A stretch of 64,000 bases of DNA, taken from assembly GCA_009784615.1 (NCBI GenBank), contig WRBJ01000002.1, positions 62,001 through 126,000 of the forward strand, given 5' to 3'. A model generated the notes under the pieces. That model was not told where the DNA came from. It was given only the letters and a program-made list of their open reading frames with translations, and did not search any database. The position numbers and the translations under genes were made by a program. The DNA is from Defluviitaleaceae bacterium (GTDB lineage Bacteria > Bacillota > Clostridia > Lachnospirales > WRAX01). This document shows, in pieces, positions 20,218 through 36,997 of the stretch (position 1 is the first letter of the stretch; each line of letters starts with the position of its first letter).

Positions 20218-22271
20218 TTTTATCTATCGGTAGTATTATTTCGGGAAGATATGAGATTTTAGAACAAATTGGCTCTGGTGGAATGTCCTATGTTTATCGG
20301 GCTTTAGACACAAAATTGCAACGTGATGTAACATTTAAGGTGTTGCGGGAAGAGTATGTAACCGATGCAAACTTTTTGGCACGCTTCGATACAGAAGCAC
20401 GTGCGGTCGCCAGCCTTAACCATCCAAACATCGTTAATGTATACGACGTTGGGCGTGAAGACGACATTAAATATATTGTAATGGAATATGTGCACGGCAA
20501 AACCCTTAAAGAACTGATTAACGAACGTGCACCTTTTTCTAACGAAATTATGCTTGGTGTTGCCGAGCAAATTACGCTTGCGCTTGTTCACGCTCACGAA
20601 AATGGCATTGTGCATAAGGATATAAAGCCCCAAAATATTTTGGTGATGAGCAATGGCACGGTAAAAGTAACAGATTTTGGCATTGCTGACGATAAAAATT
20701 CGCGTCGGGCTATTGTTGAAGAAGGCTCGACAATGGGTAGCGTGCATTATATTTCACCCGAAGCGGCAAGCTCTGCGGAAGTTGACCCTAGAAGCGACCT
20801 ATATTCGCTTGGCATTACTATGTTCGAGATGATGACGGGTGTTTTGCCTTTTGACAGCGAGGATGTTGACGAGATACCTGTTATGCATATGGAAGCTCCG
20901 CTACCAAGCATAACCAAATTTAACCCCCAAACTTTGCCAAAGGTGCGGGAGATAATTGTAAAATTAACTAGCAAAGCAACTTATAAGCGTTATCAAAGCG
21001 CAAACTCTTTATATAAAGATATTCAGCAAGCGATACATGAATGTGCGAAATATCAACAATTAGAGGCTGGTGATGAAGGCGGAGGTGAACGTTATCAAGC
21101 CCGTCATCAAAATGACACGCCTGCACCACGCAAGCCGCAACCACGACCACGAAAAACCGAAAAAGACAAATTGCGTGACAAAATTTTTATAACAGGCGGA
21201 ATTGCCGCCGCAGTGGTTGTTTTGGTTGGCTTGGGTTTTTTGATAAGCTGGATTGTTGGGCTTTTTGGCGATGATGATACAGATATGGTTTTTGTACCTA
21301 TGCTTGATGGTATGCATATTGATGCCGTGCGTGATTTGGGTCTGACCCTTGACGAATCCTTTGAATACAGCGATGATGTAGGCTTTAATTATATAATCTG
21401 GTCTAGTATTGTCGAGGCGGGTTATATGGAAATTGGGGCTAATGTTGAAGTTGTAATTTCGCAGGGTTCGGAAGATGACCAAAGAATCACAGTGCCTGAC
21501 ATTACAGGGCTTTCTATCACTGCCGCACGTGATATTATAACAAATTTAGGACTACAGCTTAATGAAGAAGAAGCAATTTTTTCGCTTACTGTGCCTGAAA
21601 ATCATATAATATCGCAAAACCCTGCATATCCCGAAGAAGTACCGTTTGGCACAGCTATATATATTGTGTGGAGCTTGGGGCAGGAAACGCAGATGGCCAC
21701 CGTGCCTAATTTGATAAGCCTAACACAATTACAAGCACAATCGCAAATTTTGGCGGCAGGGTTGACTTTAGGCGAGGTTTCTGTGGAACAAGACGCAGTT
21801 TTCCCTGCTGGAACGGTAATCCGTCAATCTGTACCAGCTAATCAATTGCGCCATAATGGCACAGCGATTGATATTACGATTTCAAACGGAAATATTCCGG
21901 TTGAAGGTGCCGAACCTACAACGCCACCAGTAGAAACGATAACTACACCGCCTACAGAGCAACCAACGACCGAGCCGCCTACCGAAGCACCAACGCAACC
22001 TAATGGCGAAGACCCAACCGAGCCAGACGAGCCAACAACACCCGTGATTTCGACACGTGTTGTACCGCTTAATCCTGTTTTGCCTGAAGGGGAGGTGTCG
22101 AATTTGACATTTGCACGCCGCAATCCTGACGGCAGTTTGACGACCATAGCAAGCAGAACTGCAACGCCTGATGATATGCCGTGGAGCATTACCGTGCAAG
22201 GTAGCGGAACGGTTGAGTTTGTGCTACTTGTTAATGGTGTAGAGTTTTCGCAGGTGATAAATTTTGATTAA
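20214..22271 (+). CDS. Ser/Thr protein kinase with PASTA repeats (PknB/PrkC-like)
   Basis: IVHKDIKPQNILV, DFGIAD; TM segment; three PASTA-like repeats; Thr/Pro-rich linker (EPTTPPVETITTPPTEQPTTEPP) and extra C-terminal domain. Confidence 0.95.
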   Translation: MILSIGSIISGRYEILEQIGSGGMSYVYRALDTKLQRDVTFKVLREEYVTDANFLARFDTEARAVASLNHPNIVNVYDVGREDDIKYIVMEYVHGKTLKELINERAPFSNEIMLGVAEQITLALVHAHENGIVHKDIKPQNILVMSNGTVKVTDFGIADDKNSRRAIVEEGSTMGSVHYISPEAASSAEVDPRSDLYSLGITMFEMMTGVLPFDSEDVDEIPVMHMEAPLPSITKFNPQTLPKVREIIVKLTSKATYKRYQSANSLYKDIQQAIHECAKYQQLEAGDEGGGERYQARHQNDTPAPRKPQPRPRKTEKDKLRDKIFITGGIAAAVVVLVGLGFLISWIVGLFGDDDTDMVFVPMLDGMHIDAVRDLGLTLDESFEYSDDVGFNYIIWSSIVEAGYMEIGANVEVVISQGSEDDQRITVPDITGLSITAARDIITNLGLQLNEEEAIFSLTVPENHIISQNPAYPEEVPFGTAIYIVWSLGQETQMATVPNLISLTQLQAQSQILAAGLTLGEVSVEQDAVFPAGTVIRQSVPANQLRHNGTAIDITISNGNIPVEGAEPTTPPVETITTPPTEQPTTEPPTEAPTQPNGEDPTEPDEPTTPVISTRVVPLNPVLPEGEVSNLTFARRNPDGSLTTIASRTATPDDMPWSITVQGSGTVEFVLLVNGVEFSQVINFD

Positions 22272-23136
22272 TTCTATATTGCAAGGAAGAATAACCAAAG
22301 GCGTTGGCGGATTGTATACAGTCGCAACGTCTTTTGGCGATTTTGCGTGTCGTGCTAGGGGGTTGTTTAAAAAGTACGAAATTACGCCTCTTGTAGGCGA
22401 TTTTGCAGAGATTTCTATTATTGACAAAGAAGCAAAAACGGGCTATGTGCAAGAATTGTTGCCAAGGCATAATGAGCTAATGCGACCAAAAGTGGCTAAT
22501 ATAGACCAAGTTATAGTGGTTTGCTCTATTCGTCCTGCGATAAATGTGCATATGCTAGATGCCTTTTTGATTAGCTGTGAGTTGCAAAATGTAGATGCTG
22601 TTTTGTGCATCAATAAGGTAGATTTGGATGCGGACGATAGCCATAAAGAGTTTATTAATGTATACGAAATGGCTAAATATAAGGTTATAGCAGTGTCGGC
22701 GCAAACGGGGCAAGGTACGGATGATTTGCGAGATTTACTGACAGGCAAAACAAGCATTTTTGCCGGAGCAAGCGGCGTTGGCAAATCCAGCATTATCAAC
22801 GCCCTTTTTTCTGATTTAGAACTGGCTACGGGTGGTTTAAGCGAGAAGATTGGGCGTGGTAAGCATACCACACGCCACACGTCGCTGATTAGGGTGGATG
22901 ATGATACCTATGTGGTGGATTCTCCAGGCTTTACATCCATCAGCATTGGAACGATTGCAAAGCGTGAATTGCAGGAATATTACCCCGAATTTGAGGCGTA
23001 TCGTTTTAGTTGTTTTTTCAATGCCTGCATACATATAACCGAGCCCGACTGTGCCGTAAAGCAACAAGTGGGCATTGCGATACACCCGAAAAGATATGAA
23101 CAGTATGCTAAATTTATAGATAAGGAGTGTCAATGA
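22264..23136 (+). CDS. rsgA: Ribosome small subunit-dependent GTPase A
   Basis: Circularly permuted GTPase: CINKVDLD, GASGVGKSSIINAL, DSPGFTS, CxxxxCxHxxxxxC-type tail (CFFNACIHITEPDCAV). Confidence 0.95.
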   Translation: MINSILQGRITKGVGGLYTVATSFGDFACRARGLFKKYEITPLVGDFAEISIIDKEAKTGYVQELLPRHNELMRPKVANIDQVIVVCSIRPAINVHMLDAFLISCELQNVDAVLCINKVDLDADDSHKEFINVYEMAKYKVIAVSAQTGQGTDDLRDLLTGKTSIFAGASGVGKSSIINALFSDLELATGGLSEKIGRGKHTTRHTSLIRVDDDTYVVDSPGFTSISIGTIAKRELQEYYPEFEAYRFSCFFNACIHITEPDCAVKQQVGIAIHPKRYEQYAKFIDKECQ

Positions 23137-27362: not shown

Positions 27363-27739
27363 AACGAGTAAGACGGGCAATTGCGCTAATGTTATGCATT
27401 GGTGAGGAAAGTCCGAGCTCCGCAGGGCAGGATGCCGTGTAACGCACGGCGAGGGCGACCTTAGGGATAGTGCAACAGAAATAAACCGCCCAGCACACTT
27501 ACGCCTCTTTAGGCATATAGTGTGCTGGGTAAGGTTGGAAAGGTGTGGTAAGAGCGCACCGCACCGTTGGCAACAATGGTGGCATATGTAAACCCCATCC
27601 GGTGCAAGGGAGAAAGCGCAAAGGGCTGCCCGCCCTGCTTTCGTAGTTCCGCAACAGCCACGCTGGCAACAGGTGGCGCAGATAGATGATTGCCGCACGC
27701 TATGCGTGATACAAAACTCGGCTTATAGTCTTGCTCGTT
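27363..27739 (+). ncRNA. rnpB: RNase P RNA (bacterial type A-like)
   Basis: gaggaaagtccgagctccgcagggcaggatgcc...gagggcgaccttagggatagtgcaacagaaataaaccgcc; P1 pairing aacgagtaagac/gtcttgctcgtt. Confidence 0.96.
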
Positions 27740-27774
27740 ATTTTATTAGAATGTATTAGGCAAACTTTTTCGAT

Positions 27775-29334
27775 TTACAAACTAACAACCTCCGTTGCTA
27801 TATTTCTGCAAAATTCCGCATCGTGTTCTACAAAAACCATTGTAGGCTTTAGTGCAATAATCGCTTCACTTAATTGTTTGCGAAAATATATATCGGTGAA
27901 ATTTAACGGTTCGTCCAAAATAAGCAAATTATGTGGGGTGGCAAGTGATTTGGCAATATCAATCTTCTTGCGTTCGCCATCGCTCATAAAATGCCAAGGT
28001 CTTTGTACATAATCCACTTTTAAATCAAAAACCGTCAGCAAATACTTAAATTTTTCCATAGCATCTTTATTATTTTCCAAAGTTTCGTAATAATTTTCGC
28101 AAAATATTGGGATTTGCTTGCTATAGCTAATTTGCAAGGCTTTGTTAATATGCAAACTGCCTTGTTGCAGACCGGTTTGCCCTGTAATAATGTTTAGTAG
28201 CGTACTTTTACCCGTGCCGTTTGCTCCGCTTATTAAAACCCTATCATTAGCACTAATTTCGAACGAAAGCCCTTTAAACAAGAATTTGTCTAAATAAGCA
28301 AAGTCTAAATTTTCGACAGCAATCATAACATCACCTTTAAAAGCAATTTGCGAAAACTGCAAAGGTCTTGTTTCTTCATAATTGGTAAGCATAGTGCTTA
28401 TTTTATCAATATTTTTAGTAATATTTTTTTCGGCAGTAATGGCACTTTTCATTATACGCAAAGACCTATTTCGGTTATGTCCCGCATAAGGATATTTTTT
28501 TGTATTTGAATTATCGGACCATTTTCTGCTATTTTCTGCCGCTTTTTCAAGTTGAACCATCTTATTTTCTAGGTTTTTCTTTTGGCGTTTTTCATATTCC
28601 TCATAATTATCTTTATTTGCCTTCCAACTGGTAAAATTACCTTTTTCGATGTAGATATTAGATTTATTTATGGATAATATGTGTTTTATAGTTTTATCCA
28701 AAAACTCTATATCGTGCGAAACAATAATATAACCTTGCTTTTTTTGTAGATAACTCGCCAAATCATTCCGCCCTTTGGCGTCAAGATGATTTGTGGGTTC
28801 GTCCAACAATACAAAATCGGGATTTTTTAAAAACAAAATGATTATCATAATTTTTGTTCTCTCGCCGCCCGAAAGCGTTTCCCAATCTCTGCGCAAAATT
28901 TCGCTGTTCAGTCCCATACGATAAAATTCTTTTTCAATGTCGGCTTCAATCGTACCTCCGCCATCTTCATAATATTTTGCTAATTTCTCAATATACAGTG
29001 GGTCGCTTGTTTGCTCATTTTTTTCATAATGTTTTATGGCATCCTCTGCGCTTTTAAATTTGCCCACATTTTCTTTAATAAAATCTGCAACATTCTCGTA
29101 TGTTCTATTTATGTCATATGGAAAAAGCTCCGTACTTACGCTAGAAGCGATTTGCCCGCCAGTGGGTTTTAATATGCCGTGTAGTAATTTTAATAATGTT
29201 GTTTTTCCTCTTGCGTTTCTGCCTATAAGCCCCAGTTTCCAAGATGCGTCAATCTCAAGATTTACATTATCAAAAAGTGGTGAATAGTAATCGCTATAAG
29301 CAAAGGTAAGATTGTGCAATATAAATTTACTCAT
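27775..29334 (-). CDS. ABC-F ATP-binding protein, Lsa-like (ribosome-protection type)
   Basis: Two ABC cassettes (GRNARGKTTLLKLLHG/LSGGERTK; SGANGTGKSTLLNIITG), no TM; overall style WKLGLIGRN...LDEPTNHLDAKGR, LDEPLNFTDIYFR, VEHDAEF resembles Lsa-type ABC-F. Confidence 0.85.
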   Translation of the reverse strand: MSKFILHNLTFAYSDYYSPLFDNVNLEIDASWKLGLIGRNARGKTTLLKLLHGILKPTGGQIASSVSTELFPYDINRTYENVADFIKENVGKFKSAEDAIKHYEKNEQTSDPLYIEKLAKYYEDGGGTIEADIEKEFYRMGLNSEILRRDWETLSGGERTKIMIIILFLKNPDFVLLDEPTNHLDAKGRNDLASYLQKKQGYIIVSHDIEFLDKTIKHILSINKSNIYIEKGNFTSWKANKDNYEEYEKRQKKNLENKMVQLEKAAENSRKWSDNSNTKKYPYAGHNRNRSLRIMKSAITAEKNITKNIDKISTMLTNYEETRPLQFSQIAFKGDVMIAVENLDFAYLDKFLFKGLSFEISANDRVLISGANGTGKSTLLNIITGQTGLQQGSLHINKALQISYSKQIPIFCENYYETLENNKDAMEKFKYLLTVFDLKVDYVQRPWHFMSDGERKKIDIAKSLATPHNLLILDEPLNFTDIYFRKQLSEAIIALKPTMVFVEHDAEFCRNIATEVVSL

Positions 29335-29357
29335 TTTATTCCTCCATTTCTGCAATC

Positions 29358-29385
29358 AAAAAGGACACAACCCAAAGTCGTGCCC
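29358..29385 (-). terminator. Attenuator terminator in the ABC-F leader
   Basis: Minus strand gggcacgac-tttgg-gttgtgtcc followed by ttttt; ends ~24 nt before the ABC-F ATG. Confidence 0.8.
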
Positions 29386-29462
29386 ATAATAAATTATTCA
29401 CGTCAAGTTGTTATTTCGACGCAACAAAATAACAATATATCTTGTGCGCCATATTCAGTTAG

Positions 29463-29492
29463 CTACGCAACCACACTGATTCTGTCAAACAT
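29463..29492 (-). CDS. Putative 9-aa regulatory leader peptide MFDRISVVA upstream of the ABC-F gene
   Basis: Minus strand aaaggagaatttaggt-ATGTTTGACAGAATCAGTGTGGTTGCGTAG; good SD; lies between a TTGCAA-17-TAGACT promoter and the attenuator. Confidence 0.65.
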   Translation of the reverse strand: MFDRISVVA

Positions 29493-29606
29493 ACCTAAAT
29501 TCTCCTTTCAAAACCACTACAAAGAGTCTATCACAAAATAACTAGCATTGCAAGTTTTTTATTTTATTTCACTATTGTTGCCTATTAAATTGAGAATGGC
29601 ACAGAT

Positions 29607-30557
29607 TTAACTCTTTTCAAAAAGCAACGAAATTAGCGGAACGGTGGCTAGGCATAACAGGTCGCTTGCCACGGTTAGCTTTAGGGCGATGCCTGTGTCG
29701 GCTTTGTGTTGCTCTGTGAAGATGATTGTGATGGTTGCCACGGGCATTGCGCCCAGCGTGATGATTGCGCCCAGTTGTATAGGGTCTGTGATGAAGTTGC
29801 GGATGATGAAGTAGGCAACGAGAGGTATGGCGACTAGACGCAGGATGACGAGCGGGTAAATGCGCCAATCTGCAAAGAGTTTTGCAATGCCGAAGGCGGA
29901 TATGTATTTTGAAAGGAGCGAACCCATTAGAAGCATTGCAAGCGGCGTTGTAACAGCGGCGAACATCGAAATGGCATTTTGAAGCGGGGCGGGTATTGGT
30001 AAATTCATCACGAAAAAAATAATACCAATATACATAGCTACAAGGGCGGGCGATAATAAAATTTGCTTTGTAGAGGCGGCTTTTGGTTGCTCGTTTTCGA
30101 CAGAAGATTTAATAAGATATGCCCCAAACGTAAAAACAAGTATGTTAAACGCCATTGCTGACATAGATGCGTGTATCATTACATTATCGCCAAAAACCGA
30201 TTGCACTATTGGAAAGCCTATGTATACGACATTTGGAAACATAAGCGAAAATTGCCAAATGCGTTTCTCGGCTTGGGTTGCTTTTACAAGTTTTGCAAAA
30301 ATGCTTGCGGCTGAATATCCTAGAAAGTATATAATCGTCATAATGCCCAGCGTTATAAGACTTTCGAGCAATAGCTCGCGTGAAAATGAGCGCATTGTTA
30401 TGGAAGCAAAGACCGTGGCGGGTAATGTGAATTTTACCAAAAGCGTTGCCATTGCGTCGTTTGCGTTGTCGGATAAAAAGCCGAGCTTGCGCCCGACGAA
30501 GCCTATAAATACACAGACCACAAGGGTTGACATACTGCCTAAAAATACATTAAACAT
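29607..30557 (-). CDS. AEC (auxin efflux carrier) family transporter
   Basis: MFNVFLGSMSTLVVCVFIGFVGRKLGFLSDNANDAMATLLVKFTLPATVFASI; multi-TM; start trimmed to internal Met. Confidence 0.85.
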   Translation of the reverse strand: MFNVFLGSMSTLVVCVFIGFVGRKLGFLSDNANDAMATLLVKFTLPATVFASITMRSFSRELLLESLITLGIMTIIYFLGYSAASIFAKLVKATQAEKRIWQFSLMFPNVVYIGFPIVQSVFGDNVMIHASMSAMAFNILVFTFGAYLIKSSVENEQPKAASTKQILLSPALVAMYIGIIFFVMNLPIPAPLQNAISMFAAVTTPLAMLLMGSLLSKYISAFGIAKLFADWRIYPLVILRLVAIPLVAYFIIRNFITDPIQLGAIITLGAMPVATITIIFTEQHKADTGIALKLTVASDLLCLATVPLISLLFEKS

Positions 30558-31458
30558 CTGCAACACCTCTATTTTTTGATACAAAACTTGTTAAAAGATT
30601 TGTTAAATGTGATGGCGCAAAGCCTTTTTTTAATACATAGTAAAATTTGCGTTGTGGTAGCTCGCACGACAGTTTTACCTGCGTTACAAGCCTTTTGTCA
30701 ACATAGGTTTTTGCCGCAAATTTGGACACAATAGCGACACCAAGACCATTAATGACGGCATTTATAATACTTTGTGTATTATCAAAATGCGAAACAATAT
30801 TAATTTTTTCACTATTGATTTTATTGATATTGATAAAATTTTCATACTCACTTTTTGTGCCAGAACCCGTTTCACGCCCGATAAATGGGTGGCTGTACAA
30901 AATTTCTGCAAGACTGTAAATCTTCGGTGCGTAAATTTCGCCCCCAATAGGTGCAATTAACACCATTTCTTCTGTTGCAAATTCGTTAAAATCGCATTTT
31001 TCGTTATCTATAATTCCGCCGCAAAAACCAATTTCAGCATCACCAGCCGCAATGCCGCTTACAACACGCATTGTATCGGCTTGCCTTACATTAAAGATAA
31101 TTTTGAGATAAATTGCACGAAAATCTGCAATAATTTGTGGCAATAGATATTGCGAAGGAACGCTGGACGCTAGAACATTGATTTTGTCACTGAAATTGCC
31201 CTCGATACTGCGAATTTGTGCCATTGCATTTTCCTTTAAGGCGAGCAATTGTTTCGCACTTTCAAGAAACAATTTGCCAGCGTGGGTTAGCGCAACCTCT
31301 TTTGTAGAGCGGTTTAACAGCGGTTGACCTAATTCTTTCTCAAGCGCAGATATGTAAAGGCTAACTGATGGCTGTGAAAGAAAAATAGCATCTGCCGCCT
31401 TTGAAAAACTGCGCAATTCTGACACTTTTGCAAATGCTTCTAATTGTCTAAAATCCAT
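30550..31458 (-). CDS. LysR-family transcriptional regulator
   Basis: MDFRQLEAFAKVSELRSFSKAADAIFLSQPSVSLYISALEKELGQPLLNR HTH. Confidence 0.95.
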   Translation of the reverse strand: MDFRQLEAFAKVSELRSFSKAADAIFLSQPSVSLYISALEKELGQPLLNRSTKEVALTHAGKLFLESAKQLLALKENAMAQIRSIEGNFSDKINVLASSVPSQYLLPQIIADFRAIYLKIIFNVRQADTMRVVSGIAAGDAEIGFCGGIIDNEKCDFNEFATEEMVLIAPIGGEIYAPKIYSLAEILYSHPFIGRETGSGTKSEYENFININKINSEKINIVSHFDNTQSIINAVINGLGVAIVSKFAAKTYVDKRLVTQVKLSCELPQRKFYYVLKKGFAPSHLTNLLTSFVSKNRGVADV

Positions 31459-36839: not shown

Positions 36840-36955
36840 AATAAAAAAGTACCTGCGGAACAATTTGTTGTCCCACAGATACAAAAATCCGTAATCTGCT
36901 GCCGTAATAGCCCGACTGCACAAATCTTATTAGACTTGCCGCCTGTTCAACTTAT
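36840..36955 (-). promoter_or_regulatory. NiCo (czcD) riboswitch with overlapping intrinsic terminator upstream of the CDF gene
   Basis: Minus strand AACAGGCGGCAAG...GCAGTCGGGCTATTACGGCAGCAGATT...ATCTGTGGGACAA, then TGTGGGACAA/TTGTTCCGCA terminator and TTTTTT; located in the CDF 5' leader. Confidence 0.82.
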
Positions 36956-36997
36956 AATCTACCATATGCAACCAAGGTTTGTCAATAGTATTTTTTA

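Follow-up and report, generated by a model that had tools for sequence, protein, structure and literature searches.

A probable ribosome-mediated attenuator leader before an ABC-F gene and other ribosome-acting genes in Lachnospirales

Most descriptions of the attenuator leaders of resistance genes deal with one gene at a time. In the vmlR leader of Bacillus subtilis, the upstream open reading frame (uORF) is MIN, and sensing occurs at translation initiation (PMC9226507). The tiaA and are5sc leaders of Streptomyces coelicolor carry the uORFs MVGDDDISG and MLV, respectively, with start-codon stalling caused by lincosamides, streptogramin A, and pleuromutilins (PMC12421871). In Clostridioides difficile, the cplR leader has the uORF MRI and a terminator hairpin that sequesters the Shine-Dalgarno (SD) sequence of the ABC-F gene (PMC10201436), while the hflXr (rli80) leader of Listeria has a uORF with an RLR macrolide motif. 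Both uORF attenuators of ABC-F genes and, for HflXr, the placement of a GTPase paralogue under such an attenuator are already known (PMC6310831).

We analyzed a leader upstream of an ABC-F gene in a 64,000-nucleotide stretch of DNA (the window) from a member of the Lachnospirales that is known from metagenome assemblies. We conclude that this leader is probably a ribosome-mediated transcription attenuator and that it belongs to a family found before several ribosome-acting genes in this order of gut bacteria; by analogy, an attenuator mode of the vmlR or tiaA kind is the most likely one. The elements of the leader and the gene that follows it are listed here in the direction of transcription.

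29525..29553, minus strand: promoter, with -35 TTGCAA (29553-29548), a 17-nt spacer, and -10 TAGACT (29530-29525)
29502..29508, minus strand: SD sequence of the uORF, AAAGGAG, by direct reading
29463..29492, minus strand: uORF of 9 codons, MFDRISVVA*, read as ATG TTT GAC AGA ATC AGT GTG GTT GCG TAG
29455..29479, minus strand: predicted hairpin P1, pairing 29479-29469 (second half of the uORF) with 29464-29455 (up to the bases just 3' of its stop)
29418..29450, minus strand: hairpin P2, GGCGCA...TGCGTC
29433-29427 and 29416-29410, minus strand: the complementary segments gttattt and aaataac
29399..29411, minus strand: segment E, ACAACTTGACGTG (family consensus CAACCTTTCGTGAATAC), a plausible pivot and the 5' arm of the predicted antiterminator
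29358..29385, minus strand: intrinsic terminator, with stem-loop 29385-29363 (GGGCACGACTTTGGGTTGTGTCC) and T-run TTTTT (29362-29358)
27775..29334, minus strand: ABC-F gene, 519 amino acids, with SD sequence GGAGG and Walker A and B motifs in both nucleotide-binding domains

The promoter, the SD sequence, the MFDRISVVA uORF, the TTTTT terminator, and the ABC-F start codon at 29334 all lie where the original prediction had placed them, and its reading of the region as an attenuator-like leader, complete with a uORF, ahead of a ribosome protection-type ABC-F gene is supported by the evidence below. Direct reading of the leader also showed that the -10 element is preceded by TG, making it an extended -10 (TG-N-TAGACT). 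The terminator was the top match of our pattern scan; its stem has 10 pairs, including a terminal U-G, where 9 bp had been claimed, and its T-run ends 23 nt before the ABC-F start codon, not about 24. The alternative stem that had been proposed, gttattt/aaataac, is present, but the conserved hairpin is P2 instead. Of the window's 62 gene starts, only that of the ABC-F gene combines the two elements; taken singly, a terminator at most 70 nt upstream and a uORF with an SD sequence each occur at four. In addition, none of 2,000 dinucleotide shuffles of the leader contained both elements.

We compared the leader with that of its sister species, represented by contig WRBU01000222.1 (G001), a Defluviitaleaceae metagenome-assembled genome that is the nearest public relative of the host and that we take to be of termite-gut source. 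The ABC-F proteins are 89% identical, and the leaders are 78% identical at the nucleotide level over about 232 bases, with the match between the two loci starting at about the promoter. The sister retains the promoter (TTGCAA-17-TAAACT), the SD sequence, the start and stop of the uORF, hairpin P2, and the terminator. Its uORF has 8 codons and reads MFEIWFAK, so that the peptide is not conserved, while a 3-nt gap keeps the frame. For hairpin P2, at most 1 in 1,000 shuffles folded as well in the window and in the sister alike (p<=0.001 in both species). P1 is predicted in both ABC-F leaders, with one two-sided C-G/U-A change and p values against shuffles of 0.14 in the window and 0.001 in the sister; the Tet-like leader described below does not show it in this form. 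A second ORF that spans the terminator is open in both species (MGTTLGCVLFDC... in the window and MDTTLGCVLFDC... in the sister), and it was set aside as lacking an SD sequence.

The same comparison bears on a simpler account of the locus, in which the terminator merely ends the transcript of the upstream transporter gene, or a spurious transcript, the uORF is there by chance, and expression of the ABC-F gene either depends on an unseen promoter of its own or is low. The upstream gene (29607-30584) does share the strand, with 222 nt between its end and the terminator, and a uORF with an SD sequence arose by itself in 11% of shuffled leaders. However, the gene upstream in the sister is a different one, encoding orotidine-5'-phosphate decarboxylase where the window has a Mem_trans (AEC-type) transporter, yet the promoter, uORF, and terminator are kept, and homologous uORF leaders also precede unrelated genes. 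We consider a chance arrangement of this kind to be very improbable indeed; because the elements are kept in the sister despite the different upstream gene, promoter, leader, and gene form one unit.

In its architecture, the leader resembles that of vmlR, since both have a uORF with an SD sequence, an anti-antiterminator and an antiterminator (putative in the window), and an intrinsic terminator before an ABC-F gene. The two also differ: the uORF has 9 codons here and 3 in vmlR, no fourth hairpin that would sequester an SD sequence is evident in the window leader, and the leader is common to several genes here, while that of vmlR serves one (PMC9226507). It shares with tiaA a uORF of 9 codons and, putatively, with the tiaA and are5sc leaders a uORF ribosome-binding site that overlaps the antiterminator; those leaders come from another phylum and precede two ARE5 paralogues, in contrast to three unrelated gene families here (PMC12421871). 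As with cplR, a uORF and a terminator precede an ABC-F gene of Clostridia, but the ABC-F SD sequence lies beyond the terminator in the window (PMC10201436).

To search for further copies of the leader, we used a covariance model (R1) that spans the uORF stop to the T-run and was built from the two ABC-F leaders only, these being the only known ABC-F leaders of the family (n=2), and a second model (R2) of three leaders. The three genes of the RsgA and Tet-like groups in the host genome (G000) that matter here are the following.

G000:C29:4501-4659 (L066 4659-4501), minus strand: leader before a Tet(M)-like gene, with a 9-codon uORF, MRIKMVICA
G000:C24:21448-21607 (L090 1449-1608), plus strand: leader before an RsgA-like GTPase gene, with uORF MAYKNENRGAGK
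22264..23136 of the window, plus strand: housekeeping rsgA, with genes for a pknB-type kinase and an rpe-like product next to it

R1 matched the leader of the Tet-like gene at G000:C29:4616-4501 (44 bits; E value of 2.2e-4). Outside the span of R1, this leader also matches that of the ABC-F gene in having a TTGCAA -35 element at the same distance (within 1 nt), a 9-codon uORF, and an identical 13-mer, GTTTTGAAAGGAG, whose window copy lies in the SD region of the uORF. The gene behind this second leader is Tet-like but is not filed as Tet: family NF012153 (tetracycline ribosomal protection) was the best of all families for its product, with a score of 663.1 bits that falls below the cut-off of 775. 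A Tet-like gene with a similar leader (uORF MLYAVIFN) was also found in G011, from a second genus of the family, while the leader is absent from the Tet-like homologues of G086, G108, G150, and G232.

The third leader in the host genome is more distant and was found by R2 (E value of 0.0016), a model that includes the Tet-like leader. In other families, R2 likewise picked out leaders of RsgA-like genes (L082, L083, and L087). A protein-first search for RsgA-like genes showed that many of the nearest loci, including that of the sister (L103), have the following elements upstream in this same order: an SD sequence, a short uORF in which GGTGATT often stands close to the end, P2, the conserved pivot CAACCTTTCGTGAATAC, and a terminator of the form GATACGA...TCGTGTC-TTTTTT. 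Eight loci of this set have R2 matches with E values of <=0.1 directly upstream. When the leader model was run on 42 other ABC-F loci, there was one stray match. In addition, no such leader was recognisable at the model matches L063 and L065 (G013) and L085, L086, L088, and L089, which we took as chance; because of these matches, the E values of the leader models are to be read as optimistic. Judged from sequence, one leader family thus is found before three unrelated ribosome-acting genes (ABC-F, Tet-like, and RsgA-like) in one genome, and the copies before the Tet-like and RsgA-like genes are a feature that the original prediction had missed.

We aligned 14 members of the family, fitted to the model structure (alignment A6). 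Compensatory changes are seen in P2, in which pair 96-166 occurs as CG, UA, UG, AU, and GC, and the terminator also shows two-sided changes across these members. The better conservation of P2 and the terminator than of the uORF peptide would fit a ligand-binding riboswitch or a protein-responsive attenuator in which the uORF is incidental. Against this stand the uORF of 8 to 15 codons that every family member read has in the same place, downstream genes whose sole common trait is action on the ribosome, and the lack of an Rfam match at any useful score (nothing of use appeared either at the gathering thresholds or at E<=10), so that we regard a riboswitch or protein-responsive element as very unlikely. 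As had been suggested, the leader seems to be undescribed, since it matches no Rfam family and is unnamed in the papers found.

We found that segment E can pair with terminator bases 29382-29379 and 29375-29367, which cover the 5' arm, loop, and 3' arm, to give an antiterminator of 13 bp. The gain from this pairing was -10.2 kcal/mol in the window and -11.1 kcal/mol in the sister, compared to -12.7 and -13.3 kcal/mol, respectively, for the terminator, and pair-penalty folding against shuffled spacers gave p values of 0.007 (window) and 0.005 (sister). Two one-sided changes in the sister leave all 13 pairs intact. These models support a conserved antiterminator that would be mutually exclusive with the terminator and nearly as stable. 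Naming the arms of P2 A and B and those of the terminator C and D, each of the three leaders examined could also form an alternative antiterminator A:D (-7.0, -12.1, and -8.6 kcal/mol). We rejected A:D and B:C as the main switch, as P2 beats A:D in every leader, and A:D is kept as a possibility only.

The original prediction had called for folding of the leader with and without a stalled ribosome, and the outcome depended on the type of folding. In equilibrium folding with a ribosome footprint placed on each codon, the terminator formed with a probability of 0.7 to 1.0 at every position, with no switch. We also simulated cotranscriptional folding with a home-made script, and these kinetic results are suggestive only. 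For the window leader, they gave an antiterminator fraction of 0.34 without a ribosome and of 0.6 to 1.0 with a ribosome on codons 2 to 3 or 5 to 10, while there was no antiterminator with the ribosome at the AUG and 8% at codon 4, where the terminator formed instead; two other parameter sets pointed in the same direction. In the sister leader, the antiterminator mostly prevailed whatever the position of the ribosome. A ribosome at the AUG raised the antiterminator from 0.01 to 0.74 in the host's own Tet-like leader, and no antiterminator was obtained for the G011 Tet-like leader. We also assessed pairing of E with the uORF ribosome-binding site, which was strong in the G011 Tet-like leader (-18.6 kcal/mol; p<=0.001), moderate in the host's own Tet-like leader (-12.6 kcal/mol; p of 0.07), and not significant in the window leader (-5.6 kcal/mol). 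Across the family, neither of the two pairings of E was significant against broad shuffles (Fisher p values of 0.06 and 0.10).

In the mechanism that we propose, transcription would start at 29518 or so in the absence of a drug, the uORF would be translated and released, and the RNA would fold into the terminator, stopping transcription before the ABC-F gene. In this off state, E may be held by the uORF ribosome-binding site, a proposal that draws on the strong pairing in the G011 Tet-like leader, the weaker one in the host's own Tet-like leader, and the weak one in the window. If ribosomes were stalled on the uORF, E would stay free and could pair with the 5' arm, loop, and 3' arm of the terminator, and this antiterminator would let RNA polymerase read into the gene. 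On this reading, the switch would be a ribosome on the uORF, and the signal would be a ribosome-targeting drug. The two ABC-F leaders encode different peptides, so that a general stall, or one at the start codon or close to it, is likelier than a stall that depends on the peptide.

Peptide-specific sensing, in which the nascent uORF peptide would arrest the ribosome together with a macrolide-like drug, was nevertheless weighed as an alternative. The Ile and Val positions of the window uORF presumably match those of ErmAL1, and V-[IVM]-x-x* or something similar closes most of the family uORFs that were read; most RsgA-like leaders have V-I or V-V close to the end. The ISVV of the window resembles IAVV, which is the arrest motif in the erm(A) leader (PMC12698558). 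However, the V-V/V-I motif is lost in three leaders, namely, that of the sister ABC-F gene and the RsgA-like leaders of the host genome (MAYKNENRGAGK) and the sister (MANYIVLRGGRL), and the codons involved read NNG GTG RTT in almost every case, a pattern that suggests a constraint at the level of bases and not of amino acids. These codons stand before the stop in most family uORFs of alignment A6, and GGTGAT is, we assume, complementary to the 16S rRNA 3' end, AUCACC. The leader is thus not clearly a peptide-specific sensor, an arrangement that we consider unlikely, and the earlier proposal that MFDRISVVA itself senses the antibiotic is weakened by a sister uORF that keeps the RNA frame and encodes MFEIWFAK.

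The leader-bearing RsgA-like copy in the host genome and the L083 protein scored 165.3 and 163.4 bits, respectively, against the RsgA family TIGR00157 (cut-off of 100 bits), compared to 229.5 bits for the housekeeping RsgA. No leader was found upstream of the housekeeping gene (22264-23136); since this separate rsgA is present, the leader belongs to a second paralogue. This arrangement recalls hflXr/rli80, where a paralogue of a housekeeping ribosome GTPase likewise lies under a uORF attenuator, although the GTPase is HflX there and RsgA here (PMC6310831). We also observed that, at L106 (G122:C22) and L107 (G108:C6), about 400 nt separate the RsgA-like paralogue from an ABC-F gene that shares its strand, and the two genes possibly form one operon in G122 and G108.

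We did not find a homologous leader before three unrelated ribosome-acting genes of one genome in our search of open-licence papers. That three unrelated genes of one small genome have homologous leaders suggests that switches of this kind spread as cassettes and tie genes together in a common response. We tentatively suggest, as a possibility that we hold somewhat short of even, that a portable attenuator RNA was copied before the ABC-F gene, the Tet-like gene, and the second RsgA gene, giving a regulator-free regulon in which all three would be switched on in cis by blocked ribosomes. In that case, the RsgA-like paralogue would be comparable to HflXr, as a factor in ribosome rescue or antibiotic tolerance that has gone unrecognised. 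The leader would also offer a sequence-based handle for new ribosome-protection genes, any gene behind it being a candidate; the first such candidate is the second RsgA-like GTPase, which is directly next to an ABC-F gene in G122 and G108.

The ABC-F protein had been called Lsa-like. Lsa is indeed the nearest named family (ARE3), by profile and by a PDB sequence search in which LsaA was the best match, but the score against the Lsa family (NCBIfam NF000167) was 420.1 bits, far below the curated cut-off of 750. The protein scored 385.7 bits against NF000355 (ribosomal protection-like ABC-F), above its cut-off of 380. In a tree that took in Lsa(E), OptrA, PoxtA, Msr(A), and EttA, and in which long outgroup branches were flagged, it fell into a separate clade of its own beside the one that contains Lsa(E) (support of 96/91 and 100/99). 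It also differs from Lsa proteins in an extra arm-like segment in the first nucleotide-binding domain and in its linker loop. Thus, the window ABC-F is a relative of Lsa and not an Lsa.

Nearer relatives of the window ABC-F have other uORFs, namely, MLIRLRFMLESE (with an R-L-R macrolide-type motif), MRIREK, and MRIC at L038, L008, and L040, respectively, and leaders seem to be exchanged faster than ABC-F genes. A different leader, with the uORF M-x-N-F-S-C* or close to that, precedes Lsa-like genes across Lachnospirales (L014, L016, L022, L023, L026, L028, L029, L030, L033, L034, L045, L046, and L055 340-358), and the bases of this uORF recur in the 3' arm of that leader's terminator. The mobile lsa(E) gene of Enterococcus plasmids carries the same type of leader, with the uORF MYNFSC*, and the Lachnospirales genome G016 encodes an ABC-F that matches lsa(E) in both linker sequence and leader. 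These sequence matches suggest that lsa(E) and its leader may be of Lachnospirales origin.

Two other RNA features lie in the window. A class A RNase P RNA (27365-27741, plus strand) is encoded on the strand opposite the ABC-F gene and ends 33 nt from its stop codon, and a NiCo riboswitch (36866-36960, minus strand) comes with a terminator that lies 50 nt upstream of the gene at 36801-35890.
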